Shown here in pieces: positions 5,632 to 25,628 of a stretch of 58,259 nt of DNA; the first letter of the stretch is position 1; each line of letters begins with the position of its first letter. Under the pieces are notes generated by a model. It was given only the letters and a program-made list of their open reading frames with translations. It made no database searches and was not told where the DNA came from. This DNA comes from Ignavibacteria bacterium (lineage in GTDB: Bacteria; Bacteroidota; Ignavibacteria; Tepidaquicellales; Tepidaquicellaceae), in the NCBI GenBank assembly GCA_016929695.1, contig JAFGII010000057.1, positions 1-58,259 on the forward strand, read 5' to 3'. The translations under genes were made by a program, and so were the position numbers.

Positions 5632-5672
5632 AATATATAAGATTAATTTTTAATTTTCCGAATAAATATATT

Positions 5673-6662: not shown

Positions 6663-6689
6663 TGTATATTCTTTAATATTATAAAATTT

Positions 6690-7121
6690 TTAATTTTCAC
6701 TGAGTTTTAAAGGACCGAGTTCCCTTATTTGTTTTTCAAAATCAAGTGTGGTAGCGGCATACTTGTCTCCTTCCGATGCAGATATCCATTCGAGACGGAG
6801 CCTTTTCGGGTCAATGCCAAACTGCTCGAGAAATATTTTCATAAATTCAACCCGTCGTAAGGTTTTATAATTTCCTTCCGAATAGTGGCAGTCGCCGATA
6901 TGACATCCTCCGATGAATACACCGTCGGCACCCTTCTTGAATGCCTCAAGTACAAATGTCGGGTCAACCCTGCCTGAACACATTACTCTGATTATTCTGA
7001 CGCAGGGAGATGATTTCAGTCTCGAAACACCGGCTAAATCAGCACCGGTATATGTGCACCAGTTACAAAGGAACGCCGCTATTTTGGGGTCCCAGCCGTT
7101 TGTTTTTTTATCTTCTGACAT
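6690..7121 (-). CDS. mvhD: MvhD-like hydrogenase iron-sulfur subunit
   Basis: Small [2Fe-2S] adaptor that in Mvh-Hdr complexes carries electrons from the hydrogenase to HdrA. FLCNWCTYTGAD near residue 19 gives C19 and C22. RIIRVMCSGR and the GGCHIGDCHY motif are diagnostic of the family. Length (143 residues) matches MvhD. It lies 30 bases downstream of the NuoG-HdrA fusion gene, which fits a role as physical link between that protein and the hydrogenase dimer. HdrD/HdrF fusions of this domain exist elsewhere, but here it stands alone. Confidence 0.95.
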   Translation of the reverse strand: MSEDKKTNGWDPKIAAFLCNWCTYTGADLAGVSRLKSSPCVRIIRVMCSGRVDPTFVLEAFKKGADGVFIGGCHIGDCHYSEGNYKTLRRVEFMKIFLEQFGIDPKRLRLEWISASEGDKYAATTLDFEKQIRELGPLKLSEN

Positions 7122-7151
7122 AATAATATTTTAAAATTTATAATTCTTTTT

Positions 7152-8918: not shown

Positions 8919-8935
8919 AATTTTATTCTCCTTTA

Positions 8936-10768
8936 TTATTCAATTTTAATAGCTTCAAAATTACAAACATCATAGCATACGCCGCATTTTCCGCATTTCA
9001 TAGGGTCAATATAATGAACTTTCTTTTTTTCACCGATAATTGCTCCATCGGGACAATGCTTACTGCAAACGCCGCATCCATGACCTATTTCAAGACATAT
9101 TTTCTCATCTATTGTGAATGTCAGCAATTGCCGGCAGATTTTCGCCGGACACTTCTTATCCCGCACGTGGGCTATATATTCATCCCGGAAATATTTCAAT
9201 GAAGTTAATACCGGATTGGGTGCAGAACCTCCGAGTGCACATAATGAAGATTCAACTACCATTTGAGATAAATCTTCAAGTATATCAAGGTCTTCTTCTT
9301 TACCTTCTCCGGAAGTAATTCTATCCAGTATATCGTACATTCTCTTAGTACCTTCCCGACAGGGAATACATTTTCCGCAGGATTCTTCCTGTGTGAATTT
9401 CAAAAAGTACTTAGCCATATCAACCATACAGTTCTCTTCATCCATAATAACCATACCACCTGAACCCATCATAGAGCCGACTTTTGTCAATTCTTCGTAA
9501 TCAACCGGAAGGTCGATTAGACTTTCAGGAATGAAACCGCCTGAAGGACCACCCGTCTGAACTGCTTTAAATTTTTTTCCGTCTTTGATACCGCCGCCAA
9601 TATTATAAACGATATCTCTTAATGTAATACCCATAGGTACTTCTACAAGACCTGTATTGTTTACTTTACCTGCTATCGAAAATACTTTAGTTCCTTTGCT
9701 TCCTCCCCAGGGGTCGTGAGTAACATCTCCTGTCCCTATACTCGAAAACCATTCTGAACCTCTCAATATAATTTGCGGAACATTTACCCAGGTTTCAACA
9801 TTATTAAGGCAGGTCGGACAGTCAAATAAGCCTTTTTCTACCGTGTGTACATATTTCGCTCTCGGTTCACCCGCACGGCCTTCAACAGAAGCCATTAAAG
9901 CGGTGGATTCACCACAGACAAATGCTCCGGCACCTCTTCTAACTTTTATGTCAAAAGAGAATTTTGAATCAAAAATATTATCGCCGAGCAATCCATATTC
10001 CTTTGCCTGCTCAATTGCTATATTAAATCTTTTAATTGCCAGCGGATATTCCATTCTTACATAAATATATCCTTCTCTGACATTTTCTATCGCATATGCA
10101 CCAATTATCATTCCTTCAATAACAGAATGAGGGTCTCCTTCTATTATGCTTCTGTCCATAAATGCACCCGGGTCACCTTCATCCGCATTACAGATAACAT
10201 ATTTGCTATCGCCGCTAATTTTTTTACAGGTCTCCCATTTAATACCTGTAGGAAATCCTCCTCCCCCTCTCCCGCGTAGTCCGGATTTTTTTATTTCCTG
10301 AATAACTTCATCAGGAGTCATCGAGGTTAAAACTTTTGCAAGAGCTCTGTAACCGCCCCGCGCAATATAATCATCTATCTTTTCGGGGTCTATCATTCCT
10401 CTGTTTCGTAACGCTACCAGTGTCTGATCAGAGAAAAAAGGTATACTTGACATTTTTGGTATAGGTACTTCTTTTTCCGGAGGTGTGTACATCAGTTTTT
10501 TTACAGGCCGCCCTTTTAAAAAATGTTCTTCTACAAGTAAGGGGATATCTGATACTTTCAACTGTTGATAAAAAATACCATCAGGTTGAACTACCAAAAT
10601 AGGTCCTGCACCGCAAAAACCGTTGCAACCGGTTGTAATTACCTCTGCTTCTGCCTGAAGATTATGTTTCGCTATCTGCTTTTCAAGCGCATCCTTGATT
10701 TCAAAAGAATGGTTGGAAACACATCCTGTCCCGGCACATACCATTAACTGTAATCTGTATGATTTCAT
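8936..10768 (-). CDS. NuoF/HydB-like NAD(H)- and FMN-binding subunit
   Basis: Predicted NAD(H)-oxidoreducing flavoprotein and, in the HydABC family, the site of flavin-based bifurcation. An N-terminal thioredoxin-like [2Fe-2S] domain covers about residues 1-100. The NADH/FMN site follows, with GLRGRGGGGFPTG and GAGAFVCGESTAL. An SLBB region and the ESCGKCIPCREG [4Fe-4S] motif come next. Two further [4Fe-4S] motifs close the protein (CGVCSKHCP; CGKCGVCYDVC). Classical NuoF lacks the N-terminal and C-terminal additions, whereas HydB/HndC of bifurcating hydrogenases has both. At 610 residues it is full length. Confidence 0.93.
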   Translation of the reverse strand: MKSYRLQLMVCAGTGCVSNHSFEIKDALEKQIAKHNLQAEAEVITTGCNGFCGAGPILVVQPDGIFYQQLKVSDIPLLVEEHFLKGRPVKKLMYTPPEKEVPIPKMSSIPFFSDQTLVALRNRGMIDPEKIDDYIARGGYRALAKVLTSMTPDEVIQEIKKSGLRGRGGGGFPTGIKWETCKKISGDSKYVICNADEGDPGAFMDRSIIEGDPHSVIEGMIIGAYAIENVREGYIYVRMEYPLAIKRFNIAIEQAKEYGLLGDNIFDSKFSFDIKVRRGAGAFVCGESTALMASVEGRAGEPRAKYVHTVEKGLFDCPTCLNNVETWVNVPQIILRGSEWFSSIGTGDVTHDPWGGSKGTKVFSIAGKVNNTGLVEVPMGITLRDIVYNIGGGIKDGKKFKAVQTGGPSGGFIPESLIDLPVDYEELTKVGSMMGSGGMVIMDEENCMVDMAKYFLKFTQEESCGKCIPCREGTKRMYDILDRITSGEGKEEDLDILEDLSQMVVESSLCALGGSAPNPVLTSLKYFRDEYIAHVRDKKCPAKICRQLLTFTIDEKICLEIGHGCGVCSKHCPDGAIIGEKKKVHYIDPMKCGKCGVCYDVCNFEAIKIE

Positions 10769-10793
10769 TATAAGTTACTTTAATTATAAATTA

Positions 10794-11177
10794 TTATTGT
10801 ATTTTTTCACTTCCAATTGAAAGAGCATATTCACTTACGAACATACCTTTCATTACGTGGTCTTCAAAAATCTTTCTCACTTTCTCTTCTGTGAGGTCAA
10901 CATATTTAACAGGAGCCTGACCGAGTACTTCAACTGTAGCCATTGGTTCCCTGCTGCATAATCCTGCACATCCGGAAGTTGTTAAGATTACGTCCTGTAC
11001 TTTTTTTTCTTCAATCTCCTTTACAAATGCATTCATAATATCCCTCGCACCTGCCGCGATACCGCAAGTTCCCATATGCACGGTAACTTTAACTCTTCCA
11101 CCGCCTTCTCTCACGGTCATCGTTCTTTTAAACTCCTCACTGATTTTTTCCAGATCTTCAATTTTTAATTTTCCCAT
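10794..11177 (-). CDS. (2Fe-2S) ferredoxin-domain protein, HndB-like
   Basis: Small thioredoxin-fold [2Fe-2S] protein of the type found between NuoE- and NuoF-like genes in HndABCD and related hydrogenase operons. GTCGIAAGARD and SGCAGLC supply the visible cysteines. An AAGGA ribosome site lies just before the ATG. It probably relays electrons around the NuoE/NuoF pair. At 127 residues it is typical for the family. Confidence 0.88.
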   Translation of the reverse strand: MGKLKIEDLEKISEEFKRTMTVREGGGRVKVTVHMGTCGIAAGARDIMNAFVKEIEEKKVQDVILTTSGCAGLCSREPMATVEVLGQAPVKYVDLTEEKVRKIFEDHVMKGMFVSEYALSIGSEKIQ

Positions 11178-11188
11178 TTTTTTTTCCT

Positions 11189-11656
11189 TTATTTGTCTTT
11201 GTATTTTTTAATTAATTTTTGTACTCCTTGAACACCTACCGGTCCATATAAATCATCTTCTATAATTACGACAGGTGCCAGTCCGCATGTTCCGACGCAA
11301 CCAGAAATATCAAGGCTGAACTGCATATCTTCTGTTGTGCCTCCGCATTTGATTTTAAGTTCACGTTCCAAAGCACTTAATACTTTAGGTGCCCCCAATG
11401 CGTGGCAGGGAGTTCCCATACATACGCATATTTTGTGTTTGCCTTTAGGTGTAAGACTAAACTTTTTATAAAACGTGGCAATGTTGTAAATTTGTGCAAC
11501 GGGAACATTTGACTCTTCAGATATTATTTTTATAAGTTCTTTTGGCAAATAATTGAACTCATTCTGGACATCATGCATCATTTCAATTACGTTCTCGGGC
11601 TTATTTTCCCACCTCGAGACTATTTTTTTCGTTTTTGTAATCGCTTCTGCTGTCAT
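11189..11656 (-). CDS. NuoE/HydC-like [2Fe-2S] subunit
   Basis: Small subunit of the NADH-oxidising module, partner of the NuoF-like protein. The [2Fe-2S] ligands sit in CMGTPC and in SGCVGTCGLAP, the usual NuoE pattern. The N-terminal helical region with LPKELIKIISEES is also typical. Length (155 residues) is normal. Its start lies 56 bases inside the preceding ATPase gene, an unusually long overlap for this operon. The family N-terminus supports this ATG, since a later start would remove conserved helix residues. Confidence 0.92.
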   Translation of the reverse strand: MTAEAITKTKKIVSRWENKPENVIEMMHDVQNEFNYLPKELIKIISEESNVPVAQIYNIATFYKKFSLTPKGKHKICVCMGTPCHALGAPKVLSALERELKIKCGGTTEDMQFSLDISGCVGTCGLAPVVIIEDDLYGPVGVQGVQKLIKKYKDK

Positions 11657-12206
11657 ATTCTTTTTTAGATTTAAAATTATTATAATTATTAATTAAATAT
11701 TTCTTCATAAAAGGTATCAAGATACCATTTGATATTCCCAGGTTTTTCGATATTTCCTTTAATTCGTCACTTTCAAATTCGAATTCCCGGTTGTCTTTCT
11801 TATGAAAGTACTTTAAATTTATCTTTGATTCATTTGCAAATATTGCTAAAACAGTATCAATCATATTTCCAAGCGGTTGTCTGTCAATATGAGATAATTT
11901 AAACTTAATATTTACCTCCGTTCCTTCACCTTCCTTTGAAGTTATCCCCAGTCCGCCACCTGTCATTTCTGCCGCAAGTTTTATAAGTGGAATTCCCAAT
12001 CCGACCTTTCTTGTAGTCCTTGTTGTTACAAACGGGTCTGTTATTTTTTTTATTGTTTCTTCAGTCATACCTTTTCCGTCATCCTTTATTTTAATGTTCA
12101 GCAAGTCATCTTTTGTACTTTCAATTATTTCAATAAAAATATTTTCGGCACCTGCATTAATACCATTTTCTGCAATGTCAAGTATATGCAATGATATATC
12201 ATCCAT
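11601..12206 (-). CDS. GHKL-type ATP-binding protein of hydrogenase operon
   Basis: A stand-alone histidine-kinase-like ATPase domain. The N-box (DIAENGINAGA), G1 (DDGKGM) and G2 (KVGLGIPLIK, TGGGLGI) motifs are present, but no phospho-acceptor His domain. The start at 12206 is chosen because AGGAGA lies about 8 bases upstream and the ATG overlaps the previous stop by 8 bases; an in-frame upstream start at 12248 would bury it in that gene. Similar genes sit next to NuoE-like subunits in clostridial HydABC clusters, where their function is not settled. It may regulate the complex or transcription. Confidence 0.8.
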   Translation of the reverse strand: MDDISLHILDIAENGINAGAENIFIEIIESTKDDLLNIKIKDDGKGMTEETIKKITDPFVTTRTTRKVGLGIPLIKLAAEMTGGGLGITSKEGEGTEVNIKFKLSHIDRQPLGNMIDTVLAIFANESKINLKYFHKKDNREFEFESDELKEISKNLGISNGILIPFMKKYLINNYNNFKSKKEYDSRSDYKNEKNSLEVGK

Positions 12207-12921
12207 ACAAATATCTCCTGAATTCTTCAAACGAGTTGTCTTTTCCACAAATTTCCATATATGTGCTTCCTATCATATTTAATGAATGTGAATCCGAACC
12301 TTTCACAAATTTATATCTGGAAAAATATTCCTTATAATATTCTTTTGCGCTTTCAATATTCATATTAGGTGAAATCTCTAATGCATCGAAACTGCAGTTA
12401 TCCGGAATAAATCCAAACTGACTAATTATTGAAAAACTCGGTCTGTCTATATGTGCGGCAATTGCGAGTCCGTTATTTGAATGTATAAGTTCAAGTATTT
12501 CATCCAGACTTAAATCAACAGCACTTAAAAGGGATTTATCATAAAATCCTTCTACTTCGTCATCTTCATTCGCCAGAATCTGCTCGGCTTTTTCCTTTTC
12601 GTAATATACATCGGGCAGATTATTATTTATAACATCCTGCACACTGTATGCATCTTCCGGATTCTCAAATAAAGCAAGCGTATGAATTTCCTCACTCGTG
12701 GTAATTTCCATACCCGGGTAAACTCTTAAATCATCGAACATTTTTGCCGCTCTCATCGCTGCTTCCGTATTTGCCATTGTGTTATGGTCTGTTATAAAAA
12801 TTAAATTTAGTCCTTTCTCATATGCTTTTTCAACCACCCTTTTAGGTGATTGGGTAATTTCAGCACAGGGGGATAAACATGTATGTAAATGAACATCAAC
12901 TTTTATTAATTTTCCAGTCAT
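12199..12921 (-). CDS. PHP-domain metal-dependent phosphoesterase
   Basis: Predicted phosphoesterase of the PHP (polymerase and histidinol phosphatase) family. HLHTCLSP, TDHNT, an E in the PGMEITT segment, AAHIDRP and GSDSHS give the expected metal-ligand series. The start at 12921 gives a 4-base ATGA overlap with the preceding DRTGG gene; an alternative at 12933 would add four residues. Its substrate is unknown. PHP genes in this exact position recur in HydABC operons, so it may act on a nucleotide or phosphoprotein tied to hydrogenase regulation, but that is inference. Confidence 0.83.
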   Translation of the reverse strand: MTGKLIKVDVHLHTCLSPCAEITQSPKRVVEKAYEKGLNLIFITDHNTMANTEAAMRAAKMFDDLRVYPGMEITTSEEIHTLALFENPEDAYSVQDVINNNLPDVYYEKEKAEQILANEDDEVEGFYDKSLLSAVDLSLDEILELIHSNNGLAIAAHIDRPSFSIISQFGFIPDNCSFDALEISPNMNIESAKEYYKEYFSRYKFVKGSDSHSLNMIGSTYMEICGKDNSFEEFRRYLYG

Positions 12922-13253
12922 CTGATTCCGCAATCGTAAATCTTTCCGCTTATTTGAAATGATGTCAAAGGTGTTGTCAGTATCGTAATTTTTTCTTCAA
13001 TCGCTTTATCCAGTGTTTCTTTGCTTATTTCCCTGTCCATTACCACGATTACGGCGGCAATTTCCTTCAATGAGGCAACTGCCGTTATGTTTAAATGTGT
13101 TTGCAAAGTTATCCATATATTGTCCTTTTTTGTATTTGCCATAACATCACTCAGTAAATCGCTTGTATATCCTCCTGTAATATTCGTTTCAGGATTGAAC
13201 ACCTTCGTTACCACTTTCAAATCTCCGGTATTTATAAGTTCGTTTATATTCAC
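12918..13253 (-). CDS. DRTGG-domain protein (second copy)
   Basis: A 111-residue protein resembling the DRTGG domain seen in regulators and in clostridial hydrogenase operons. The visible pattern is GGYTSDLLSDVM near the N-terminus, then alternating beta and alpha segments with a VASLKEIAAVIVV core. There are no catalytic motifs and no membrane segment. It is paralogous to the 118-residue protein at 15015. It is presumed to bind a nucleotide or a partner domain and probably regulates, rather than catalyses. Confidence 0.72.
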   Translation of the reverse strand: MNINELINTGDLKVVTKVFNPETNITGGYTSDLLSDVMANTKKDNIWITLQTHLNITAVASLKEIAAVIVVMDREISKETLDKAIEEKITILTTPLTSFQISGKIYDCGIR

Positions 13254-13264
13254 TTTTATAGAAT

Positions 13265-14581
13265 TTATTGCACTTTAAAATCTTCAGTGTCAATATTGTT
13301 AAGTTCCTTTTTGAGTTTTTTATTTTCCAGAATTATACAGTCAAATAATTTTTTTTCTCCGGCTGCACAGTCTTCCGCAAATGCTTCGCAATCAGGTGAG
13401 CCGCAGGCGCCGCAGTTTATTTTCGGCAGTTTTGCGTATATTCTTTTTTTCTCCGCAAGCCTGCTCAATGCGTTCTTAATGTCAAAATCTGTTCCGTTTC
13501 CGGTTACATTATCGAACATTCTTTCGTTGTACATCTGATAATCGCTGTAAATGTCTTTTTTTCCTACGGGTATTTTTGTCTCGCTGAATGAATCAATAAG
13601 ATTTTTTAAATTTGTTCCTGCTAAATAAGCATTTTCAACAACCATAGGTCCGCCGAGACAACCTTCGGGACAGGAACGCATTTCTACAAATTCCACATTG
13701 TGAAGTTTTCCTTTATCAATTTCGTCGAGAATATAAAGTACGTTATTAATTCCCGATACGGAAATAAAATTATCATTTCCCATCATAAAACCCAGTCCGC
13801 CTATGCGGTCGAAATTCAATCCGAATCCGCTTATCTCAAAATACTCTGTTTGTGAACTTCTGTCATTTCTGATTTTAAACATAGCACCAAAAAGCGTATT
13901 ATATATTTCGGAAATAGGTATTGCTCCGTCTATATCGGAATAATATTTATCGGTTTTCTGCGTAATTAATATCATTTTGGACGGACAGGGAGTTATGTAT
14001 ATCACACCTACCTCTTCGGGCTTTAAGTTCATTCTCTTTGTAACTTCCTTTCTGGCATCTTTTGCAGCTAACTCGATTGGCGGAATTACAGGAATCAGTC
14101 TGCCCAATAATTCCGGGTATTTAACCTGTATAATTTTTACACAGGTTGGGCAAAATGTTGCTATAAGAGGTTTAATTCCTTTATATTCTTTTATATATTT
14201 TGAAATTGCTTTTGTGACCGATATGCAAGCCTTGGAAACATCATAAGATTCATCAAAACCAATTTTTTCCAAAGAGCTTAATATGTCTTTGGGTTTTATG
14301 TCTCTGTCAAACTGAGAATATAATGCCAGTGCGGGAATTACCACAGTATATTTAAAATCCGAAAAATCTTTAAATGTGTTTGTCAATGGAATTATTGCAT
14401 TTGCTTTACATACCTTGACGCACTCTCCGCAATCAATACATTTGTTTTCTATTATTCTTGCCTTACCGTTTCTTATCCTTATAGCGCCGACAGGGCATAC
14501 TTTCATACATGCCATATCGCCTATGCATCTTTCCGGTTGAATAACTATAGAATGATAATATGTATTCAAATCATTCTGCAT
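13265..14581 (-). CDS. Divergent FeFe-hydrogenase-like protein, probably sensory
   Basis: Two ferredoxin motifs open the protein. The first has Asp at one ligand position (C19, D22, C25, C29) and the second is complete (C48, C51, C54, C58). The Fe_hyd_lg_C-type core follows with four candidate H-cluster cysteines: C144 (TFCPT), C199 (PCPSK) and C314/C318 (SCPEGC). The catalytic proton-relay Cys is replaced by F143, and the Met two before the third Cys ligand by R312. A final CxxCGxxxC motif (C390, C393, C398, C405) matches the small Fe-S domain PF04060. This points to a redox or H2 sensor rather than a fast enzyme. It starts on a TAATG overlap. Confidence 0.82.
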   Translation of the reverse strand: MQNDLNTYYHSIVIQPERCIGDMACMKVCPVGAIRIRNGKARIIENKCIDCGECVKVCKANAIIPLTNTFKDFSDFKYTVVIPALALYSQFDRDIKPKDILSSLEKIGFDESYDVSKACISVTKAISKYIKEYKGIKPLIATFCPTCVKIIQVKYPELLGRLIPVIPPIELAAKDARKEVTKRMNLKPEEVGVIYITPCPSKMILITQKTDKYYSDIDGAIPISEIYNTLFGAMFKIRNDRSSQTEYFEISGFGLNFDRIGGLGFMMGNDNFISVSGINNVLYILDEIDKGKLHNVEFVEMRSCPEGCLGGPMVVENAYLAGTNLKNLIDSFSETKIPVGKKDIYSDYQMYNERMFDNVTGNGTDFDIKNALSRLAEKKRIYAKLPKINCGACGSPDCEAFAEDCAAGEKKLFDCIILENKKLKKELNNIDTEDFKVQ

Positions 14582-15018
14582 TAATTGAGATATATTTTTA
14601 TGATTAATTTTGTACCTTTCGAAACTATGGATTCTAACTTAAATTCATCTGAATTCTTTTTAATGTTTGGTAGTCCCAGTCCTGCTCCAAAGCCCATTTC
14701 TCTTATTTCCGCGGTTGCCGTCGAATATCCTTCCATCATTGCAAGTTCAATATCTTCTATTCCCGGTCCCTCATCATTTATTATTATACATACTGCTTTA
14801 TCCGTTATTTGAAAATCGAGTTCGCCTCTGAATGCATACATAACTACATTCATTTCCGCCTCGTAACAACAAATTGATACTCTGTAAACAACATCGGGTT
14901 TAACACCGATTTCCTTCAGTATTTTTTTTATCTGTACCGAAACATTACCGGCATTAGCAAAATCCCTGCCTGTAATATAAAATTTCTGCCTGTATAATGT
15001 TTCGATTTCCATTCTCAT
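14581..15018 (-). CDS. RsbW-like anti-sigma/serine-kinase-type ATPase
   Basis: A single GHKL ATPase domain of 145 residues. NVVMYAF (N-box region), NDEGPGIED (G1) and GFGAGLGL (G2) are visible. It resembles RsbW-type anti-sigma regulatory kinases. It overlaps the upstream DRTGG gene by 4 bases and the downstream FeFe-like gene by 1 base, so the three are likely translationally coupled. A target sigma or anti-anti-sigma factor is not encoded in the window. Confidence 0.82.
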   Translation of the reverse strand: MRMEIETLYRQKFYITGRDFANAGNVSVQIKKILKEIGVKPDVVYRVSICCYEAEMNVVMYAFRGELDFQITDKAVCIIINDEGPGIEDIELAMMEGYSTATAEIREMGFGAGLGLPNIKKNSDEFKLESIVSKGTKLIIKIYLN

Positions 15019-15371
15019 TTTTCAGACTTTTTTGAACATTTCAAACCTAAATTAAATAATATTCCGCATACTTCGTACATATTCATATCGGTTGATAATA
15101 ACGGCAGTTTGATTGAATACGCTTTATCAATTACATCCTGTGCAGGCTCTTTTCCGTTTATAAAAATTATTCCTTTTAAGTCCATAATTTCGGCAACCTG
15201 TACTACCTGCTGATTTATTAAACCTGTAATAAGTAATGCTCCCGTCTCACAGGATTTTAATACATCACTCATCATATCTGCGGCATAAGCAGACTTCATT
15301 TCTCTGTCAAGTAAATCACCGTTTGTCAGACTTTTACATTTAATTTTACTATAAATATCTTTCAGATTCAT
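15015..15371 (-). CDS. DRTGG-domain protein (first copy)
   Basis: A 118-residue protein of the DRTGG-like type, paralogous to the gene at 12918. The shared pattern is a small N-terminal helix, AADMMSDVL, then a beta-alpha core with VAEIMDLKGIIFING. Its ATG follows immediately on the TAA of the HdrA N-terminal-half gene (TAAATG), which suggests tight translational coupling. It has no enzyme motif. Function is presumed regulatory from its company. Confidence 0.75.
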   Translation of the reverse strand: MNLKDIYSKIKCKSLTNGDLLDREMKSAYAADMMSDVLKSCETGALLITGLINQQVVQVAEIMDLKGIIFINGKEPAQDVIDKAYSIKLPLLSTDMNMYEVCGILFNLGLKCSKKSEK

Positions 15372-16229
15372 TTATTTTTTTTCATTAATTAAAATATCAT
15401 TCTCAAGAATAATTTGCCGTCTTGTAGGAAATCTAGACGCCGGACAATGACTCCAGCATTGACCGCATCCCGTACATTTTTCCGTATCAACGTAACGTGC
15501 TTTTTTCTTGATTTTAACTTTGAAATTTCCTAAGAAACCCGACACGGAAACAACTTCCGCCCACGAAAATAATTTAATGTTTTCACGGTGACCAGCAGAT
15601 ACCATCTTAGGAGTTAAAATACAGGCGGAACAGTCAAGTGTCGGAAATGTCTTGTCGAATAACGCCATTTTTCCTCCGATTGAAGGTTCTTTTTCAACCA
15701 GAAAGACGTTGTTTCCGGAATCTGCAATTTCAAGCGCCGCCTGAATTCCCGCAATACCTGCTCCTATTATAAGTGTGTCTTTATTGATTTTTACTCTATC
15801 TACTTCAAGAGGAGACTGAAGAGCAACTCTTGATACTGCGGCACTGGCGTGAGATTTTGCCTTGAGGGTTGCTTCATCTTTATTATCGTGCACCCAGGAA
15901 CAATGTTCGCGGATGTTTGCCATCTGGAACAAAAACTTGTTTAGACCTGCTTTTTCACAGGCATTCCTGAATGTAAGTTCGTGCATTAAAGGTGAACATG
16001 CCGCCACCACCACCCTGTTCAGTTTGTTCGTCTTGATTGCATTTTTTATTAAATCCTGCCCGGGGTCGGAGCACATAAATTTGTAATCCTGAGAGACTAC
16101 AACATTTGGTAATTTTGATACGTGATCTCTTACATCGGCTACATTAACCGTTGAAGATATATTCACTCCGCAATGACAGATAAAAAATCCAATTCTTACA
16201 TCGTCTTTTTTTGATTCTTCCTTATTCAT
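15372..16229 (-). CDS. hdrA: HdrA N-terminal half (FAD loop plus first inserted cluster)
   Basis: Only the first half of heterodisulfide-reductase subunit A. Present are the N-terminal domain with ICHCG (C18, C20), the thioredoxin-reductase-like FAD loop GAGIAG at 156-161, DCSACILTPKM (C200, C203) and one [4Fe-4S] motif (C242, C245, C248, C252). It stops 33 residues later at 285, whereas whole HdrA is around 650. The missing part is encoded in the NuoG-like fusion at 7152-8918. There is no HdrA-like sequence directly downstream that would suggest a simple frameshift. It follows HdrC and HdrB in the canonical neighbourhood, so it is likely functional as a split subunit. Confidence 0.9.
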   Translation of the reverse strand: MNKEESKKDDVRIGFFICHCGVNISSTVNVADVRDHVSKLPNVVVSQDYKFMCSDPGQDLIKNAIKTNKLNRVVVAACSPLMHELTFRNACEKAGLNKFLFQMANIREHCSWVHDNKDEATLKAKSHASAAVSRVALQSPLEVDRVKINKDTLIIGAGIAGIQAALEIADSGNNVFLVEKEPSIGGKMALFDKTFPTLDCSACILTPKMVSAGHRENIKLFSWAEVVSVSGFLGNFKVKIKKKARYVDTEKCTGCGQCWSHCPASRFPTRRQIILENDILINEKK

Positions 16230-16256
16230 AAGATATAATTAATAATTTATTATTTA

Positions 16257-17135
16257 CTAAATTGTTTGATGTAATAATTTTCCGTTTAGTTTTACCGTGT
16301 CCGTCAAATTTTTATCTATACCCAGTTCTTTATCATTAAAACCGAATGCAAGCCCTAATACCTGCGTGAAAAACAATACCGGTATATTGTAGTTTGTATT
16401 GTAAACCTTGTTTATTTTATCCTGATATGCTTCGACATTCATCTGGCAAAGCGGACAGGTCGTTACCATGCAGTTTGCTTTGTTTTCGATTGCACATTCG
16501 ATTATTTCTTTCGACAATTTCAGTGCAACTTCTTCATAAGTGGTCATCAGCATACCGCCGCAGCATTTCAGTTTTGCGGGAAAATAAACATTTTCCGCAC
16601 CGATAGCTTCGAAAAGCGTATCCATTGTTGTCGGTTCTTCCCTGTCGTCAAAACCCTTCTCAGGCCTTACGATTTGACAGCCGTAGTAGTTGGCAATTTT
16701 CAACCCTTCGAGAGAATATTTGGTTTTTTCTCTTATTTTATCTATTCCTATATCGTTTACAAGTACATCCAGAGGATGACGTACGTTCAGAGAGAGATTG
16801 TATTCCAAACCTGCTTCGTTCAGGCATTGATTAACTTTTTCCCGAAGTTCGGGAACCGCTTTTAAATACCTGTTGGTCTTCGCAAGATTTGTGAAACAGG
16901 CACTGCATGGAGCAACTATGTCCCTTTTATATTTTTCTGCAAGCGCCAGATTCCTTGCGGCTATTGACATACCAAGAATCTCTTTAACCGACATATATGC
17001 GGTTGCACCACAGCAGTTCCAGTCCTCCAGTTCTATAAGATTGGCACCTAAATGTTCAAACACTTTTATAACGGAATCACTATAACTGCTGTGAGCCGAT
17101 TCCAGACTGCATCCGGGATAATATGTATAATCCAT
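16257..17135 (-). CDS. hdrB: Heterodisulfide reductase subunit B-like
   Basis: Predicted catalytic subunit that in methanogens reduces the CoM-S-S-CoB disulfide at two noncubane [4Fe-4S] clusters. Two CCG domains are intact: C9 with WNCCGA and PCSAC, then GCQ with KCCGGM and CPLCQ. Length (292 residues) matches HdrB. This organism is not evidently a methanogen, so the disulfide or other acceptor is unknown. It lies 5 bases after hdrC and 27 bases before the HdrA half. Confidence 0.93.
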   Translation of the reverse strand: MDYTYYPGCSLESAHSSYSDSVIKVFEHLGANLIELEDWNCCGATAYMSVKEILGMSIAARNLALAEKYKRDIVAPCSACFTNLAKTNRYLKAVPELREKVNQCLNEAGLEYNLSLNVRHPLDVLVNDIGIDKIREKTKYSLEGLKIANYYGCQIVRPEKGFDDREEPTTMDTLFEAIGAENVYFPAKLKCCGGMLMTTYEEVALKLSKEIIECAIENKANCMVTTCPLCQMNVEAYQDKINKVYNTNYNIPVLFFTQVLGLAFGFNDKELGIDKNLTDTVKLNGKLLHQTI

Positions 17136-17140
17136 AATTT

Positions 17141-17827
17141 TTATTGTTTTGTAGGTTCTAAAATAACTTGTTTATCAACTGCACCGTATCCGACGGCACC
17201 TTTAATATATTGCTTTTCATCTTTAACCGTTGGCATATCCATTTCTTCCGCTTTTTTAATGATTTTTCTGAAACCTTTCAAATCTTTAATCTTCTTTGGA
17301 AGATATGCAAGTCGTCCTCTTTTTGCCATCCTTAAACCAAGCGGAGTAAAACCAAGAAGTTTAAACGGATTGGTTTTCATAAAATAATAAATCAGCAGTC
17401 TCGCTTCGTGAAGCCTACCGTAAGAATTCATTATGCTTACAAAAGATTTTTGCATCGCATACACGGGAAAGTGTGGCGGATAAAGATTTTTCTCCATCGC
17501 AAGTCTTTTCATCGCATAAATAATATCCGTGATTTTTATTCCTGCAGGACATCTCGTCTGGCAGGCATAGCAGGAAGCGCAAACCCATATCGTTTTACTC
17601 TTCAGGATTGCTTCCATATCTCCCGCTCTGAAAAGTGCAATTAATTCTCTCGGGGAAATATCCATCGCGTACGAGACCGGACACGACCCGGTGCAGGTGC
17701 CGCATTGTATACAGGACTTTATTTTTTCGCTGTTCGGAATCAACTCGATTTGTCTTAAAAATGACTCTCTCAAGTCTTCTTCTGTCTGCGAAAGTCTGCC
17801 GGGAGGCGGAATGTTATCGATTTTCAT
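17141..17827 (-). CDS. hdrC: Heterodisulfide reductase subunit C-like
   Basis: Dicluster ferredoxin subunit that bridges HdrA and HdrB. The motifs are C39-C42-C45-C49 and C83-C86-C89-C93, each ending in CP, with the ELIALFRAGD helix between them. A C-terminal extension of about 100 residues contains YAMQKSFVSIMNSYGR, as in soluble HdrC/QmoC-like N-terminal parts. There are no transmembrane helices, so this is the soluble type and not HdrE/QmoC membrane-linked. Confidence 0.92.
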   Translation of the reverse strand: MKIDNIPPPGRLSQTEEDLRESFLRQIELIPNSEKIKSCIQCGTCTGSCPVSYAMDISPRELIALFRAGDMEAILKSKTIWVCASCYACQTRCPAGIKITDIIYAMKRLAMEKNLYPPHFPVYAMQKSFVSIMNSYGRLHEARLLIYYFMKTNPFKLLGFTPLGLRMAKRGRLAYLPKKIKDLKGFRKIIKKAEEMDMPTVKDEKQYIKGAVGYGAVDKQVILEPTKQ

Positions 17828-17855
17828 TTTTTTGTTTTATGATTTTTCAGTTATT

Positions 17856-18416
17856 TTATTTGTTTTCTGTTTCTGCTTCGGGTAAATAGTAATCTTTTAA
17901 TTCCTCTTCGCTGATGAATTCGTTCTCGAAATTTATTCTTTCATCTGTTATAAAACCTTTTGATTTTAGTAATTCGATTACTTTCTTTGAGACAGTTATT
18001 ACGCTGTTCCTTATTACGGAATTTAAATTTTCGGTTATTGTATAATTATTCTCTATTTCAATCGCAAGAATATCAATGTCGGACGGAATTTTATAATCCA
18101 TCTTTTTTGCCAGATGAAGCGCCGTAATGAAATTAATGTCGTGATAAGAATTTAATCGGAGTGTGGGAAGAAGGTCATCGGTTTTTAAATGATGAATTTC
18201 ACCTTCGGGAACCCTGCCTGTTTTTATCGAATCTATTACAATAGCATAATCAAAACCCCTTAATAAATCAATTACTCTGAATCCTCCCCAATGGGTCTCT
18301 TCAAATTTTATTTTATTAAAGCTATTCATTTTCTGTTCAAGGTATCTCTTTATAATAATACCTATTCCGTCATCCGACAGAAGCGTGTTACCCATTCCCA
18401 TTATTAATGCATTCAT
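17856..18416 (-). CDS. Hydrogenase maturation endopeptidase, HycI/HyaD family
   Basis: Protease expected to trim the C-terminal tail of the NiFe large subunit after nickel insertion. GMGNTLLSDDGIGI at the start carries the conserved acidic residue, and YAIVIDSIKTG provides the second conserved Asp. A His lies in the SYHDIN segment. At 186 residues it is of family length. It is the first gene of the operon, while its presumed substrate (25-residue tail after H466) is the last, which supports the pairing. Confidence 0.92.
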   Translation of the reverse strand: MNALIMGMGNTLLSDDGIGIIIKRYLEQKMNSFNKIKFEETHWGGFRVIDLLRGFDYAIVIDSIKTGRVPEGEIHHLKTDDLLPTLRLNSYHDINFITALHLAKKMDYKIPSDIDILAIEIENNYTITENLNSVIRNSVITVSKKVIELLKSKGFITDERINFENEFISEEELKDYYLPEAETENK

Positions 18417-18928
18417 TGCAATGAATGTAAAAAATTATAATTATATTCGAGTTTTTCAGAGCAAGGAACAAAAAAAAAGAATATCAAAAATATTCCGTAA
18501 TCAGATTCTGGTATATCTATTATCTTTAATTAAAAACCTTCGGTAATTTATTCCGCTGTAAGAGAAATACGTAAACAATAATATCATAATAAGGTTTTTA
18601 AATCTTTTTTATAATATAGAAAAATAATAGAAAATGGAAAATGCATTTAAAAAGTAGTTGCTTTTAAATAATAAAACGTATAAATAAATATGCACCTGGT
18701 TGTATCAGCAGAATTAATCAGAATTTATATCTTTTTGCTGAAAATCAAAGATATTTTATAATTAATTTTCTGTAACTTGTAGTTGCTTGCACATAGATAT
18801 TTATAGATATTTCTTCTTAATTCTTAATCTTTATTTCCGGTGCTTAATTGAGCATCCGTATTTAATATATTCCCCTGTCTTCCAACTGTTTACTACTGTC
18901 TTCTGTCTGCTTACTGCTAATTTCAATA
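18417..18928 (-). promoter_or_regulatory. Leader and promoter region of the hydrogenase operon
   Basis: No gene is seen in this 512-base stretch. On the minus strand, TATCTTTG (18753-18746) and TATTTTTG fit the Bacteroidetes -7 element TAnnTTTG, but neither has a good -33 partner. I found no -24/-12 sigma-54 element. The 18-mer at 18677-18694 reads TGCATATTTATTTATACG on the minus strand and differs from one of the palindromes at 20356 at only two positions. The end near the terminator (18860-18915) is low-complexity CTGTCTTC/TTACTACTG-like sequence. Confidence 0.35.
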
Positions 18929-18957
18929 TAAAAAAAAAGCCGACCTTAAAGGTCAGC
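18929..18957 (-). terminator. Intrinsic terminator after the double-receiver gene
   Basis: On the minus strand, GCTGACC pairs with GGTCGGC around loop TTTAA, directly followed by at least eight T. It lies 28 bases beyond the stop of the response regulator and separates it from the hydrogenase operon. Seven paired positions (one G-T) and the long T-tract make this convincing. Confidence 0.88.
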
Positions 18958-18984
18958 CTTTTAAAATTCAGTTTATCTTATTAT

Positions 18985-20142
18985 TTATGCAACCGCTTCA
19001 AGTGCTACTTTGTTTAATTCTTCCGGTGTGAAAGGTTTTGACAAGAATTCATATGCTCCTAATTTCGTTGCCTCGATTGCTGTTTCGATTGAAGCATATC
19101 CTGTTATCATTATTACAGGAGTGTTGGGATATTTTGCCTTTATAGAAAGTAACATTTCCATTCCGTCTTTACCCGGCATTTTTAAATCTACAAAGATTAA
19201 GTCATATTTTTTGTCCTGTAATTTCTTTTCGGCAGACTCTGAACTGAATGCTTCTTCAACATTGAAACTTTGCTTTGATAAAATTTTCCTTAAACTCTGG
19301 CATACAACCGGTTCATCGTCAATTACAAGTGCTTTATGTGACGCTTTGGTTTTCTTCCCGTACAGTGCAGCTCTCGGCCAGTCTGACCTGTCAAGACAGT
19401 CAAGATATTCGGCTCCTACTGCTGATTCGAGTTCTGATAAATTGAACGGCATATCTACGTCCATTAAATTCTCTGTGTGTTCAACTTTCTTCACTAATTT
19501 TGCTCTTTCTTTTTCTTTCTTCACAATCGGACATTCACCTTCGCATTCTTTCCCTGTTAATACTAATCTTCTACATTCTCTCTGACCTAAATTACAAAAA
19601 GCAGTCTTGGATTTTCTTGCCGGTGTTGTCGTATCAGAACGTGTTAATTTATTTGCATATTCCTTGCTCGTTGCTTCGGTAACTTCTTTCTCGCTGAACG
19701 GCATATCAACGTCTATCTTGTCTTCTTTATTGTTTTTTTCGGTTTTTGTTTCTTTCTTAATCGTTTCTTTTATTTTTCTGAATTCAACTGCTTTCTGTAC
19801 TTTTTCTGCTAGTTCATCAGGTGTGAAGGGCTTCGGAATATAATCAAGTGCTCCAAGTTTTGTCGCTTTTACCGCTGTCTCTATTGAAGCATATCCGGTA
19901 ATTACCATAACGTCTATTTCGGGATAGTGCTTCTTCACCATTTCAATTAACTCGATTCCGCTTGTCTTCGGCATCATTAAATCTGTTATCAATAAATCAT
20001 AATTGTTTGCTTTCATCATTTCAATTGCCTGGTCGGCATTCAGAGAATTTTCTACTAAAAATCCCTTTCTGGATAAAATCTTTTTTACACTGTCGCAGAT
20101 TGTTGATTCGTCATCTACTACTAATATTTTTTCTGTAATCAT
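18985..20142 (-). CDS. Double-receiver response regulator with Cys-rich linker
   Basis: Two CheY-like receiver domains and no output domain. REC1 covers residues 1-120 with phospho-acceptor D54 and K104. REC2 covers about 268-385 with D319. The linker holds two related segments, at 144-170 and 228-254, each beginning DVDMPF and ending in RSD. Between them is a four-cysteine motif (C183, C190, C200, C204) that could bind a metal or Fe-S cluster. Similar FTPEEL ends show the RECs are paralogous. It has its own sigma-54 promoter and a terminator, so it is a single-gene unit. It may be a phosphorelay node or redox-responsive phosphate sink; its output is unknown. Confidence 0.85.
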   Translation of the reverse strand: MITEKILVVDDESTICDSVKKILSRKGFLVENSLNADQAIEMMKANNYDLLITDLMMPKTSGIELIEMVKKHYPEIDVMVITGYASIETAVKATKLGALDYIPKPFTPDELAEKVQKAVEFRKIKETIKKETKTEKNNKEDKIDVDMPFSEKEVTEATSKEYANKLTRSDTTTPARKSKTAFCNLGQRECRRLVLTGKECEGECPIVKKEKERAKLVKKVEHTENLMDVDMPFNLSELESAVGAEYLDCLDRSDWPRAALYGKKTKASHKALVIDDEPVVCQSLRKILSKQSFNVEEAFSSESAEKKLQDKKYDLIFVDLKMPGKDGMEMLLSIKAKYPNTPVIMITGYASIETAIEATKLGAYEFLSKPFTPEELNKVALEAVA

Positions 20143-20199
20143 TTTTAAGTTCCTTTCTATTTTTAATTTTTATTTTTTTTATTCATTTTCCTTTATAGT

Positions 20200-20215
20200 T
20201 GCAAATACCGTGCCA
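20200..20215 (-). promoter_or_regulatory. Sigma-54 promoter of the double-receiver gene
   Basis: The minus strand reads TGGCACGGTATTTGCA, a near-perfect -24/-12 element (TGGCACG-N4-TTGCA) with exactly 10 bases between GG and GC. Transcription would start around 20189, giving a leader of about 45 bases before the ATG at 20142. The activator is plausibly the NtrC-type protein encoded just upstream at 20706-22118. Confidence 0.85.
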
Positions 20216-20264
20216 AACGAAATATTTATTATTTTAGCCCTTAAAGTATAAAAAAATTATAAAA

Positions 20265-20282
20265 TGTATAAAATATTATACA
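20265..20282. promoter_or_regulatory. Palindrome 1, likely upstream activator site
   Basis: TGTATAAAATATTATACA has 7-base arms (TGTATAA/TTATACA) around AATA. It lies about 75-95 bases before the predicted sigma-54 start, a typical enhancer distance. The same spacing and arms recur at 20356, 20376 and 25611. Confidence 0.65.
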
Positions 20283-20355
20283 CTTTTCCCGTCATTAAAC
20301 TGACTTTTTCTTTGTTTAAATTCTCTATTTTCTAAAATAAGTGTATTTAGTTAGA

Positions 20356-20393
20356 TGTATAATTATTTATACGGATGTATATATAATTATACA
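20356..20393. promoter_or_regulatory. Palindromes 2 and 3, tandem sites
   Basis: Two 18-bp sites, TGTATAATTATTTATACG (20356-20373) and TGTATATATAATTATACA (20376-20393), start exactly 20 bases apart, so they fall on nearly the same helix face. Both fit TGTATA-N6-TATACA, the first with one mismatch at the end. They sit about 165-205 bases before the sigma-54 start. The DNA is AT-rich, but the repeated 18-base size argues against chance. Confidence 0.65.
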
Positions 20394-20454
20394 CTCAATC
20401 TTTTATAGAAAATAAACAACTATTTTCTTGATATATCAATAAATTAATTGACTA

Positions 20455-20600
20455 CGATGCCGCCTCTCCCTTTGCTTCCTACTTCTGGTTTTTAAATCTC
20501 TCATTTTCCGGTTACTGCCCATCTTGCTTCAGTGGTAAAGTCACTGCCTCATAACATAATATTTTTCTGATGTTAATGCTCCGGAGGTGGCACCTTAAAT
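20455..20600. other. GC-richer unexplained segment, possible decayed element
   Basis: Within otherwise very AT-rich spacer, about 145 bases are clearly richer in G and C (for example CGATGCCGCCTCTCCC at one end and CTCCGGAGGTGGCACC at the other). No open frame longer than about 20 codons crosses it. Part looks like the 5' half of a tRNA but does not fold as one. A remnant of a mobile element or old gene is possible. The rest of 20394-20705 holds only AT-rich sequence and a perfect AAAAATTTTT palindrome. Confidence 0.3.
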
Positions 20601-20705
20601 TTGAAAAAAAACGTTGGTCTCAATAAAAATTTTTGTGACTTTAGTTTTAAAAATAAATCCCTGAATCCTATATTATGATTTCCCCCTGAATTGTATTTTC
20701 AGTTG

Positions 20706-22118
20706 TCAGTTATCTTCTATTTCTTCCCCATCCGGTTTCTTAATTCCGTATTTCTTCATTAATGTCTGAAAATTCGGTCTTTGCATACTGACGTCTTTTG
20801 CGGCATGGGAAATATTCCAGTCGTTTCTTTTTAATGCTTCAATCAAGAATAATTTCTCAATTTCAAATATTGATGTTTCTCTGATTTGTTTTTTTAGTGC
20901 ATTTAAATCATAAATAGTCTTTGGAATATTTGAAATTGAACTTCTGTCGGATTTATAAAGTGCATTTGTTATATCAATGGGCTTTATTTCATTCGTTTCA
21001 GAAATAATTACAAGCCTTTCAATTGTATGCTGTAACTCTCTTACATTACCGGGCCAGTGATAGTTCTGCAGCATATCCATTGCCTCTAAATCTATTGAGT
21101 TAACACTTTTATTCATTGAATCAGAATATTTATTCAGAAAGAACATCACCAGTTCAGGTATATCTTCTTTTCTCTCTCTTAATGCAGGAAGTTTTATCGG
21201 AAAAACATTTAATCTGTAATACAAATCTTCTCTGAATGAACCTTCATCGGCTAATTTTTTCAGATTCTGATTAGTTGCAAAAATTAACCTTACGTCAACC
21301 TTTTTCGTTACTGTACTTCCAACGGGTATATATTCCTTTTCCTGAATTACTCTCAGGAGACTTGCCTGTACCTCAAGAGAGAGATTCCCGATTTCATCAA
21401 GAAAAATCGTACCGCCGTCCGTTGCTTCAAATATCCCCTTCTTATCTGAATAAGCACCTGTAAATGAACCTTTTGTATGTCCGAAAAGTTCGCTCTCAAG
21501 CAATGTACCCGACAATGTCGATATATCAACTGCAAAATAACCTTTATCTTTGCGGTTGCTTCTATTATGAATTGCCTGAGCCGTTAAGTCTTTTCCTGTT
21601 CCGCTTTCACCCAGAATCAGGACAGTACTGTCAGTCGGAGCAACTTTATCAATTAATGTATATATTTCACACATCTGTGAACTTTTTCCGATTATTCCTT
21701 CGAATCCAAGTGACTGTGTATAATTAAATTTCTCACCTACGGTTTTTATCAATTTTTTTCTTTCTATTGCTTTATTTAATACTGCGAGAAGTTCATTCGG
21801 CGTAAAAGGTTTCGGCAGATAATCATAAGCGCCATATCTCATTGTCTCGACCGCAGATGCAATTGTCGCATACCCCGTTATTACTACAATTATCGTATCG
21901 GGATATTTAAATTTAACTTCCCGTATTACTTCCATTCCCCCTATATCGGGCATTTTCAAATCCGTAAAAACAATATCAAATTGTTCTTCTTCAAGAATTT
22001 TAAATGCCTGTTTCCCCGAAGTTGCCCATTTTACCAGATGACCTGCACGCAAAAATATTTTCTCGCAACTTTGACAAATCACCGGCTCATCGTCAACAAT
22101 TAAAATTTTTACTTGCAT
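20706..22118 (-). CDS. NtrC-family sigma-54-dependent response regulator
   Basis: Transcription activator for sigma-54 promoters. The receiver domain (about 1-120) has phospho-acceptor D53. The AAA+ domain has Walker A GESGTGKD, the sigma-54 contact loop as GSFTGA (the common A-to-S variant), and GGTIFLDEIGNL. A Fis-type helix-turn-helix closes the protein (WNISHAAKDVSMQRPNFQ). It follows the histidine kinase gene by 5 bases, so they form a cognate pair. Its likely sites are the 18-bp palindromes near 20265-20393 and 25611; its target promoter at 20200 lies in the adjacent spacer. Confidence 0.95.
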   Translation of the reverse strand: MQVKILIVDDEPVICQSCEKIFLRAGHLVKWATSGKQAFKILEEEQFDIVFTDLKMPDIGGMEVIREVKFKYPDTIIVVITGYATIASAVETMRYGAYDYLPKPFTPNELLAVLNKAIERKKLIKTVGEKFNYTQSLGFEGIIGKSSQMCEIYTLIDKVAPTDSTVLILGESGTGKDLTAQAIHNRSNRKDKGYFAVDISTLSGTLLESELFGHTKGSFTGAYSDKKGIFEATDGGTIFLDEIGNLSLEVQASLLRVIQEKEYIPVGSTVTKKVDVRLIFATNQNLKKLADEGSFREDLYYRLNVFPIKLPALRERKEDIPELVMFFLNKYSDSMNKSVNSIDLEAMDMLQNYHWPGNVRELQHTIERLVIISETNEIKPIDITNALYKSDRSSISNIPKTIYDLNALKKQIRETSIFEIEKLFLIEALKRNDWNISHAAKDVSMQRPNFQTLMKKYGIKKPDGEEIEDN

Positions 22119-22123
22119 AATTT

Positions 22124-24109
22124 TTATTCGCTTTCGTGTGAAATTACGGGAAGATGAATTATAAACGTTGTACCTTTTCCTATCTGGCTTTCAAGATTAA
22201 TCGTGCCGCCGTGTTGCTCAACTATACCGTAACTAAGAGCCAGACCCAGTCCCGTACCGTGTTCTTTAGTTGTAAAGAACGGGTCGAAAATTCTTGTGCG
22301 CAGTTCCTCAGGTATTCCCAATCCCGTATCGGTTATCTTGATTTCAATAAAATCTTTTGTCGTATTCACTTTTGTTTCGATAACTAATTTCCCGCCTTTC
22401 GGCATTACATCAGCTGCATTCAAAATAAGATTTATAAATACCTGCTGAATCTGGTCAGGGTCTGCCATAATCTGAGGCAATTTCTCATCAAGTATTTTCT
22501 CTATCTCTATATTCCTGAACGAGGTCTGATTTCTTACAAGTAAAATTATATTGTCAATCAGAACATTTACATCAGTTTGTTTTTTTTGCGGTTTAGTCTG
22601 CCGCGAGAAATCCAAAAGTCTCTTAACTATTTCCCTGCATCTTATAGTTTCGTTAACAATAACCTGAACATCCTCTTTTTTCGGGTCGTCTTTTTCGAAA
22701 TCCTCAAGCAGTAAACTTGCATTTGTCAGTACACCTGTTAAAGGATTATTTATTTCGTGTGCAACTCCCGCCGCAAGTTTTCCCAGTGACGCAAGTTTCT
22801 CTGAACGGAATAACTGTCCGTGTATCTTCTTTATTTCCTGAGTCCGCTCTTCGACTTTATGCTCGAGTTTTGTTGCCCATTCTTCAAGTTCTTTTTGTTC
22901 TTTCTCGAGTTCCTTAGCCATATTGTTGAGTGAAGAAGCAAGATTTTCCACTTCACGAGGTGCGTTTTTTATACTGAATTCATAACGGTAATCACCTTCC
23001 GCTATTTTTCTCGCAACTTCTTCTATCTGTTTTAACGGTGCGGAAATTTTTCTTGCTATGAAAAGAGCAATGATATATATGAAATTGATTACTATTATGG
23101 CTACTATGCAGAAAATCAGTATTGTTTTGAACAATAAATCATTGTAAGGTTTTTTCAGTAAACCTACATAAATAATTCCTACAATATTATCGTCGTAATC
23201 TCTTATTGGTTGATAGGCGCTTATGAACCAGGCATTTACCACAAATGCTTCTCCTATATATCTTTCGCCTTTAACAAGAACATTATCATAAACTTCTTCC
23301 GATACTCTTGTTCCTATTGCATAACTTCCGTCTTGATTCTTTACATTAGTTGCAATTCTTAAATCTTTCATAAATATTGTGGCAGTACCCACCTCCTGTC
23401 CTTCGTAAAGTGCACCCTCGTGAACTATTTCATTTATTTTGTTTACGAGTTGATGATTACGGTTTAATAAAACCCCGGCAATCAGCACTCCCACAAATGT
23501 TTTTTCTTTATTAAAAATAGGAACCGCCGATTTGATAACCATAGCGTTCGTCTCTATACTTTCAGTGCTTGGCTTTGATTTCTCGGTTGGGACAATCGGG
23601 ATTATCACTCTGTCCGCAAGTTCTTCGGACTCTTTCAGTAATTCCTCACGTGACATAATATCGGTGCCGGAGACTGCTTTTTTTTCTGTAATTACTTTTT
23701 TAACAAAATTATCGGATGTTAAAAAATCACCTTTAGAATTCTTGTTGCCTGTTCTGCATATAACTTTACCTTTGCTGTCGACAATTGTAAAAATATCAAG
23801 CCCCTCGCTCTTCATTGTCTGCTCGAGTTCTTTTTGCAGTGTATCTGCCTTTCCTTCAATAAGTGAAGAAATAATAAATCCCCTTGCAGCAGTTAACTTG
23901 GTTATACTTTCCAGCTGTGCTATACGATTTCTGTAAATTTCCGCAGCGGAATTTAAATCCGAAAAGGATTTCATTTCCGCCTGCTTGATTGTCTGGTTAT
24001 ATATAAACTTAATACCGATAACGCTTAATATTATGGCAGGACTTAAAATCGCAATCGCAAAGTGGATAATTAACTGAGAATGTATGCTCTTCGCTGTTAT
24101 TTTTTTCAT
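22124..24109 (-). CDS. Membrane histidine kinase with Cache-like sensor and HAMP
   Basis: Sensor kinase, predicted partner of the NtrC-type regulator. TM1 is near residues 13-36. A large extracytoplasmic double-Cache-like domain spans about 40-325, with CRTGNK around 118 and the [12 protein letters not shown] end typical of such sensors. TM2 is near 329-352, then HAMP (353-405), a charged coiled coil (405-440), HisKA with H451 (AHEINNPL), and a GHKL ATPase ([18 protein letters not shown]). The ligand is unknown. It is soluble-end to end intact at 661 residues. Confidence 0.93.
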
Positions 24110-24159: not shown

Positions 24160-25569
24160 TTAATTTTTGTCTTCAAGTGGTAAAGTAATTTTAAAACAGG
24201 TTCCCTTGCCTTTTTCATCCGCTAATCTTGACGGACTCTGGAAGATTATTTTTCCGTGATGCTGTTCCACAATTTGCTTCACAACCGTAAGCCCCAAACC
24301 AGTTCCTTCGTAACTTTTTTGCTTTACATTTGTAGCTCTGAAAAATTCGGAAAATATTTTGTTCTGCTCACTTTCAGGTATTCCTATCCCGTTATCACAT
24401 ACCTCTATTAATAATTCCCTGTTGTTTCTATAGTTATCAAGAACAACTTCAATCGTTCCACCCGAATTTGTATATTTTAAAGCATTGCCGATCAAATTTG
24501 ATAAGGCAAGTTCAAGCATGTAAGGGTCTCCCTGTACATGCTTTTTTTCATGCCGCAAATCATACAAATATAAATACTGATTGTTGTACTCTGCCTGCGC
24601 CTTTCTGTATTCAATAATTTTTTCCGTCAAAGCTGAAATATCAATGTCTTCTTTCTTTATTTCTTCAGTAAGTTTCAGTTTGGATACTTTCAAAACATCA
24701 TCAATAATCTGAATTGCTTCATCAGTCCTCACTCTTGCTCTTGATAATTTTTCTTCTACGGGAGGACTTATAGGACCGACGTATTTCTGAAGTACTATAT
24801 CGAGATTGGACTGCACCGCACTTATGGGTGTTTTTATCTCATGAACGACTCCGATTGTATATCTTTGTTTCATTTTTTCGGCTTCATTCAGTTTATTAAG
24901 TGCAATACTCAGTTCCTGCTCGCGCAATGACCAGGAACGTGCAATGGAATTTGCAAGGTATACACTTGCAAACATTACAACAGCAAACGCCGAAAGGGAA
25001 ATAATTATGTAATATATATTATCATATAATGAAAACTCAAATAAACCCGCTATTTTATGATGCGGAATTATATTCATATATTCCAGAAACGAATTAACCG
25101 AAAACCAGAACACAATTATCACTGCGAGAGAATATATTATAAACCACGGAAGCAGCAGACTACCTATAATCATATGCAGAACGAAGAAAATAAAAAACGG
25201 ACTCTCAATTCCTCCCGTGAAATAAGTCAGTATTCCGAGGCACAACAGGTCGAGAACTATCTGCAGCAACGAAAAATGCAAGGGATTAAAACCTTTCGGG
25301 TCAGTTTTTATTAAATCAGATTCATTTATAATATTGAAGACAATATTGTAAAATAGTATGAATATATTAGTTATAAAAAGAGCGAGTAACTGATCGCTCG
25401 AAAAATTAATTTCAAGAATGAAATAAGAAAAAATTATAAACATTCCTATACCTGCAGAAGCATAATATCTTAAGCGTATTAGAAGTTCGTTTCTCTTAAT
25501 TATAAATCTGAAGAGTTGGTTTACATCGTAGGTGTAAGAAGGAATTAAATTAAACATAACTATTCTCAA
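24160..25569 (-). CDS. Multi-pass membrane histidine kinase
   Basis: The N-terminal 220 residues contain about six hydrophobic segments and no obvious extracytoplasmic domain, so it may sense membrane or intramembrane signals. A HisKA domain follows with GVVHEIKTPISAV, then a GHKL ATPase with the N-box (NLIGNALKYT), G1 (CDNGIGIPE) and G2 (GTGLGL). It heads the signalling block, 50 bases before the second kinase. A palindrome overlaps its promoter. There is no Shine-Dalgarno before the ATG. Confidence 0.92.
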   Translation of the reverse strand: MRIVMFNLIPSYTYDVNQLFRFIIKRNELLIRLRYYASAGIGMFIIFSYFILEINFSSDQLLALFITNIFILFYNIVFNIINESDLIKTDPKGFNPLHFSLLQIVLDLLCLGILTYFTGGIESPFFIFFVLHMIIGSLLLPWFIIYSLAVIIVFWFSVNSFLEYMNIIPHHKIAGLFEFSLYDNIYYIIISLSAFAVVMFASVYLANSIARSWSLREQELSIALNKLNEAEKMKQRYTIGVVHEIKTPISAVQSNLDIVLQKYVGPISPPVEEKLSRARVRTDEAIQIIDDVLKVSKLKLTEEIKKEDIDISALTEKIIEYRKAQAEYNNQYLYLYDLRHEKKHVQGDPYMLELALSNLIGNALKYTNSGGTIEVVLDNYRNNRELLIEVCDNGIGIPESEQNKIFSEFFRATNVKQKSYEGTGLGLTVVKQIVEQHHGKIIFQSPSRLADEKGKGTCFKITLPLEDKN

Positions 25570-25594: not shown

Positions 25595-25628
25595 CAAATC
25601 TACATACCACTGTATATTAAGTTATACA
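25595..25628 (-). promoter_or_regulatory. Promoter -7 box overlapped by palindrome 4
   Basis: On the minus strand TAGATTTG (25602-25595) fits the Bacteroidetes -7 element. The palindrome TGTATATTAAGTTATACA (25611-25628) lies where the -33 element should be, and no good -33 is seen. This arrangement suggests either an activated promoter or repression by the palindrome's binding protein. The start codon at 25569 would be about 20 bases from the transcription start. Confidence 0.5.

Follow-up and report, generated by a model that had tools for sequence, protein, structure and literature searches.

A predicted sigma-54 enhancer and promoter for a double-receiver protein, with an adjacent NtrC-type activator, in an Ignavibacteria bacterium

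Our analysis indicates, with high confidence, that positions 20200 to 20393 of a 58,259-nucleotide stretch of DNA from an Ignavibacteria bacterium (the whole stretch analyzed is called the window below) serve as enhancer and promoter for a sigma-54 transcription unit of one gene, worked by the adjacent NtrC-type activator through palindromic sites. The activator encoded next door almost certainly works the promoter switch, to judge from the sequence comparisons described here, and a local NtrC/sigma-54 loop that drives a double-receiver protein is the best reading of the locus. The features on which the argument depends are the following, with palindrome centers given relative to the predicted transcript start at 20189.

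4156 to 18416, minus strand: gene cluster for NiFe hydrogenase, Hdr-like, NuoEF-like and maturation proteins (domain matches)
18677 to 18694, no strand: single palindrome, TGCATA-N6-TATACG, before the hydrogenase operon (full match to the relaxed pattern)
18934 to 18962, minus strand: strong intrinsic terminator behind the double-receiver gene (folding)
18985 to 20142, minus strand: double-receiver protein of 385 amino acids, two receiver domains and no output domain (domain matches and alignment)
20200 to 20215, minus strand: sigma-54 (-24/-12) promoter, TGGCACGGTATTTGCA (consensus match, weight matrix and orthologs)
20265 to 20282, no strand: proximal 18-bp palindrome, presumed activator site, no mismatches, center about -84.5 (pattern search)
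20356 to 20373, no strand: inner distal palindrome, one mismatch (TATACG), center about -175.5 (pattern search)
20376 to 20393, no strand: outer distal palindrome, no mismatches, center about -195.5 (pattern search)
20706 to 22118, minus strand: NtrC-type activator with receiver, sigma-54 AAA+ and Fis-type HTH domains (domain matches)
22124 to 24109, minus strand: histidine kinase 1 (Cache, HAMP, HisKA, HATPase), adjoining the activator class-wide
24160 to 25569, minus strand: histidine kinase 2, membrane type, found in most members of the host family only
25611 to 25628, no strand: perfect palindrome upstream of kinase 2, a possible autoregulatory site (pattern search)

The promoter matches TGGCACG-N4-TTGCA without a mismatch, has its GG and GC dinucleotides 10 bp apart within TGGCAY-N5-TTGCW, and lies 57 bases from the double-receiver ATG at 20142, which places the predicted transcript start near 20189. 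With an approximate weight matrix it scores 20.9 bits, a 7-bit lead over the next-best site on either strand of the window (13.9 bits), so that the near-perfect -24/-12 element that a sequence-only reading had proposed here, with the same start position, stands as the top-scoring site. The element is present before all 24 double-receiver orthologs that we found among 391 genomes of the class; it is strict in 22 of them, 48 to 85 bases upstream of the ATG, and degenerate at the equivalent position in G176 and G150. A gene for the cognate sigma factor, rpoN, was matched once per genome in all eight genomes searched, including that of the host. Elsewhere in the host genome, a strict sigma-54 promoter on another contig (C47:36843-36858; loci L007 and L186) has a strong terminator hairpin no more than about 85 bases downstream of it and two TTGTCTCATTTTGAGACAA palindromes 21 bp apart upstream, and this locus is a candidate for a sigma-54-driven small RNA with an activator motif of its own.

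Upstream of the double-receiver promoter, three sites of the form TGTATA-N6-TATACA had been described, two of them exactly 20 bases apart; their positions and spacing (distal starts at 20356 and 20376) are as claimed, and two of the sites are perfect, but the one at 20356 to 20373 carries a mismatch. As looked for with an NtrC-type activator, the dyads lie well upstream of the promoter, at about -84, -175 and -195. The region has a GC content of 28%, and a loose version of the pattern that tolerates three mismatches is not rare in the window (75 found, 51 expected), which is what would be anticipated if the palindromes were chance features of AT-rich intergenic DNA. The genome-wide pattern searches that had been suggested as a check speak against such an origin: perfect TGTATA-N6-TATACA occurs only three times in the 2.78-Mb genome, at 20265, 20376 and 25611, and is thus confined to the regulator cluster. 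The relaxed pattern YGYATA-N6-TATRCR gives 12 sites genome-wide, five of them at the regulator locus, against three for the reversed control, and in a complete, single-contig genome of the same genus (G002) all four relaxed sites fall at the orthologous locus. Moreover, class members of about 50% GC carry related tandems with half-sites of the form TGCAYA, so that base composition does not explain the tandem, and the spacing is conserved. On these genome-wide counts and the tandems in GC-balanced relatives we rejected chance, which we consider scarcely credible.

The same elements recur in relatives at defined distances. In six genomes from three genera of the host family, the proximal, inner and outer sites start 67 to 70, 155 to 158 and 175 to 178 bp from the promoter, and the half-sites and promoter core are 70 to 93% identical, versus 39 to 48% for the DNA between them. 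G010 and G022 lack the outer distal site and keep a single distal one, G017 retains the tandem alone at 236 and 256 bp from the promoter, and outside the host family the proximal site is not clear. Class-wide, most orthologs have an inverted-repeat tandem, with starts 20 bp apart, in the interval from the activator gene to the double-receiver gene, and in 18 of 24 regions its score was unmatched by any of 300 shuffles. Weak tandem scores among the 24 regions belong to G022, G166, G185 and G010, in two of which (G022 and G010) the retention of a single distal site accounts for the weakness; degenerate tandems were seen in G166, G185 and G097. A further 16 loci from the class contain 13 full sites, of which 12 fall between the activator and double-receiver genes. 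This pattern of sites and spacings, read from sequence comparison, is as expected for an enhancer with its promoter, and conservation backs the promoter, the spacing, the tandem sites and the neighboring NtrC-type activator of the sequence-only reading, all of which recur across the class.

The 38-bp tandem itself, with up to two mismatches, was found in 7 of 59 relatives, namely five that bear the locus (5 of the 7 closest locus-bearing genomes) and two others in which the sequence differs. The latter, from another genus without the locus, contain a near-perfect 38-bp inverted repeat (G028, C668:4374-4411; G009, C66:11284-11321; for example TGTATACAATAGTATTCATATGAATACTATTGTATACA) that is apparently a different element.

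In many class members the tandem lies directly behind the activator gene, and that of the host genome folds into a single long hairpin (z = -5.7), both of which would suit a role as RNA, either as a terminator or as a processing hairpin behind that gene. However, the tandem is not followed by a T-run, and its half-site spacers, in DNA that is AT-rich, are complementary at just 3 to 6 of their 6 bases. Many class members of about 50% GC have palindromes of unequal spacer length within the tandem, 6 bases in one copy and 7 in the second. Palindromes of this form also occur singly, at fixed promoter distances and before other genes. We therefore regard an RNA function as highly improbable and favor DNA sites for the activator. 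Between these distal sites and the activator gene, about 200 bases (20440 to 20640) are GC-richer than their surroundings; they lack an obvious equivalent in sister genomes and match nothing in Rfam, and scanning the whole window against Rfam and for tRNAs likewise gave no hits.

The protein proposed to act at these sites carries all three domains expected of an NtrC-type activator, as had been supposed for the product of the neighboring gene. Its loop for contact with sigma-54 reads GSFTGA, a one-residue variant that we counted as GAFTGA. Its recognition helix, MQR(S/P)N(F/L)Q(A/T)L, hardly varies among 21 orthologs and is unlike those of four other readable activators of the host genome, and the order of kinase 1, activator and double-receiver genes is syntenic class-wide. 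From this conservation and synteny we infer that the NtrC-type protein is the probable ligand of the palindromes.

Two further sites and a terminator were overlooked when the region was described as a complete control region. One of these sites, at 18677 to 18694, sits between the double-receiver terminator and the hydrogenase operon, and full palindromes occupy the equivalent interval in G001, G002, G006, G010 and G022; the other, upstream of kinase 2, persists as an 11-of-12 version in G001 and G002. A weight-matrix scan of the window found no recognizable sigma-54 promoter adjoining either site, which implies that not every palindrome is a sigma-54 enhancer. Their placement suggests that in the host family the activator may act before the hydrogenase operon and kinase 2 too, whether by activation, repression or looping.

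The single palindromes also bear on whether another regulator, for example an Rrf2-type repressor, might own the operators, with the -24/-12 element alone belonging to the sigma-54 system. In G006, G010 and G022 the interval palindrome lies 137 to 139 bp upstream of the start of an Rrf2-type gene, and in G017 kinase 1 is preceded by an Rrf2-type gene, as would be fitting for such a binder. Yet no Rrf2-type protein was detected in the host genome or in its sister G001, both of which carry perfect sites, and this disfavors Rrf2 as the binder; in addition, the sites keep fixed, enhancer-like distances to the promoter and follow the activator gene class-wide. We hold binding by another regulator to be very improbable and retain the NtrC-type protein as the presumed binder.

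Genes related to hydrogenases lie near the locus in many, though not all, class members. Within the locus, an Rrf2-type gene is situated between the double-receiver and hydrogenase genes in L045, L047 and L048 and before kinase 1 in L046. Inside the Hdr/hydrogenase cluster of the window, a run of small genes (12199 to 15371, minus strand) that recurs in relatives encodes two DRTGG-like proteins, an anti-sigma-type HATPase, a PHP-type protein and an Fe-hydrogenase-like protein, and this run may be a second regulatory unit.

The promoter is predicted to drive mainly the double-receiver gene, and not the hydrogenase operon, since a strong terminator (18962 to 18934) follows that gene; similar hairpins are found 3' of most double-receiver orthologs. 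Both receiver domains of the product conserve the acidic pocket and the Asp and Lys residues. The linker that joins them (19339 to 19770, minus strand) has four cysteines that are invariant, together with two copies of a DVDMPF...SD motif, and it matched no Pfam family or solved structure. We infer that the double-receiver protein may feed back on the same kinases or act on the neighboring hydrogenase system.

Our findings lead us to propose that a cognate kinase, probably histidine kinase 1, would phosphorylate the adjacent NtrC-type activator, dimers of which would then bind the 18-bp palindromes, cooperatively at the two distal sites, which are 20 bp apart, and also at the proximal one. DNA looping would bring the activator to sigma-54 RNA polymerase at the -24/-12 element, ATP hydrolysis by the activator would open the promoter, and transcription would begin near 20189 and end at the terminator behind the gene, yielding a double-receiver protein without a DNA-binding domain. 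More tentatively, and as a possibility that we would not call probable, the locus could represent a class-wide module built on a sigma-54 activator with a single dedicated enhancer and a single main target. That target would be a double-receiver adaptor whose cysteine-containing linker is undescribed, and it would tune either the same kinases or a complex of the hydrogenase/Hdr type post-translationally.

Together these elements make up a ready-to-use set of operator, activator and target for a signaling system that many class members keep near hydrogenase genes. The palindrome motif is specific enough to narrow the regulon to a few sites per genome. The findings also single out a double-receiver protein, itself undescribed, as the main output of the system. 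No paper on this double-receiver/NtrC system was found in the literature searched.

Response regulators of the HoxA/HupR type are members of the NtrC family linked to hydrogenase genes. The locus resembles them, judged by genomic neighborhood, in having an NtrC-family regulator beside hydrogenase genes, and differs in that its sigma-54 promoter is predicted to drive the double-receiver gene and not hydrogenase structural genes. With enteric NtrC it shares the receiver-AAA+-Fis architecture of the activator and paired dyads situated over 100 bp before a -24/-12 promoter, and the TGCAYA half-site of some class members is close to the enteric box, which is the 17-bp TGCACCAnnnTGGTGCA (PMC8743547). 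The sites described here do not match that box, being 18 bp long with TGTATA halves (a TGTATA/TGCAYA-N6 palindrome class-wide); the distal pair is 20 bp apart, the target is a double-receiver protein, and a few sites at one locus stand in place of a nitrogen regulon. Reconstructed sigma-54 regulons of Clostridiales likewise contain local activator-target pairs, with the activator encoded beside its few targets, although they belong to another bacterial group and use another motif, and the target at the present locus is itself a signaling protein (PMC6615313). The kind of switch is therefore ordinary; what is new is the DNA motif and the double-receiver target.
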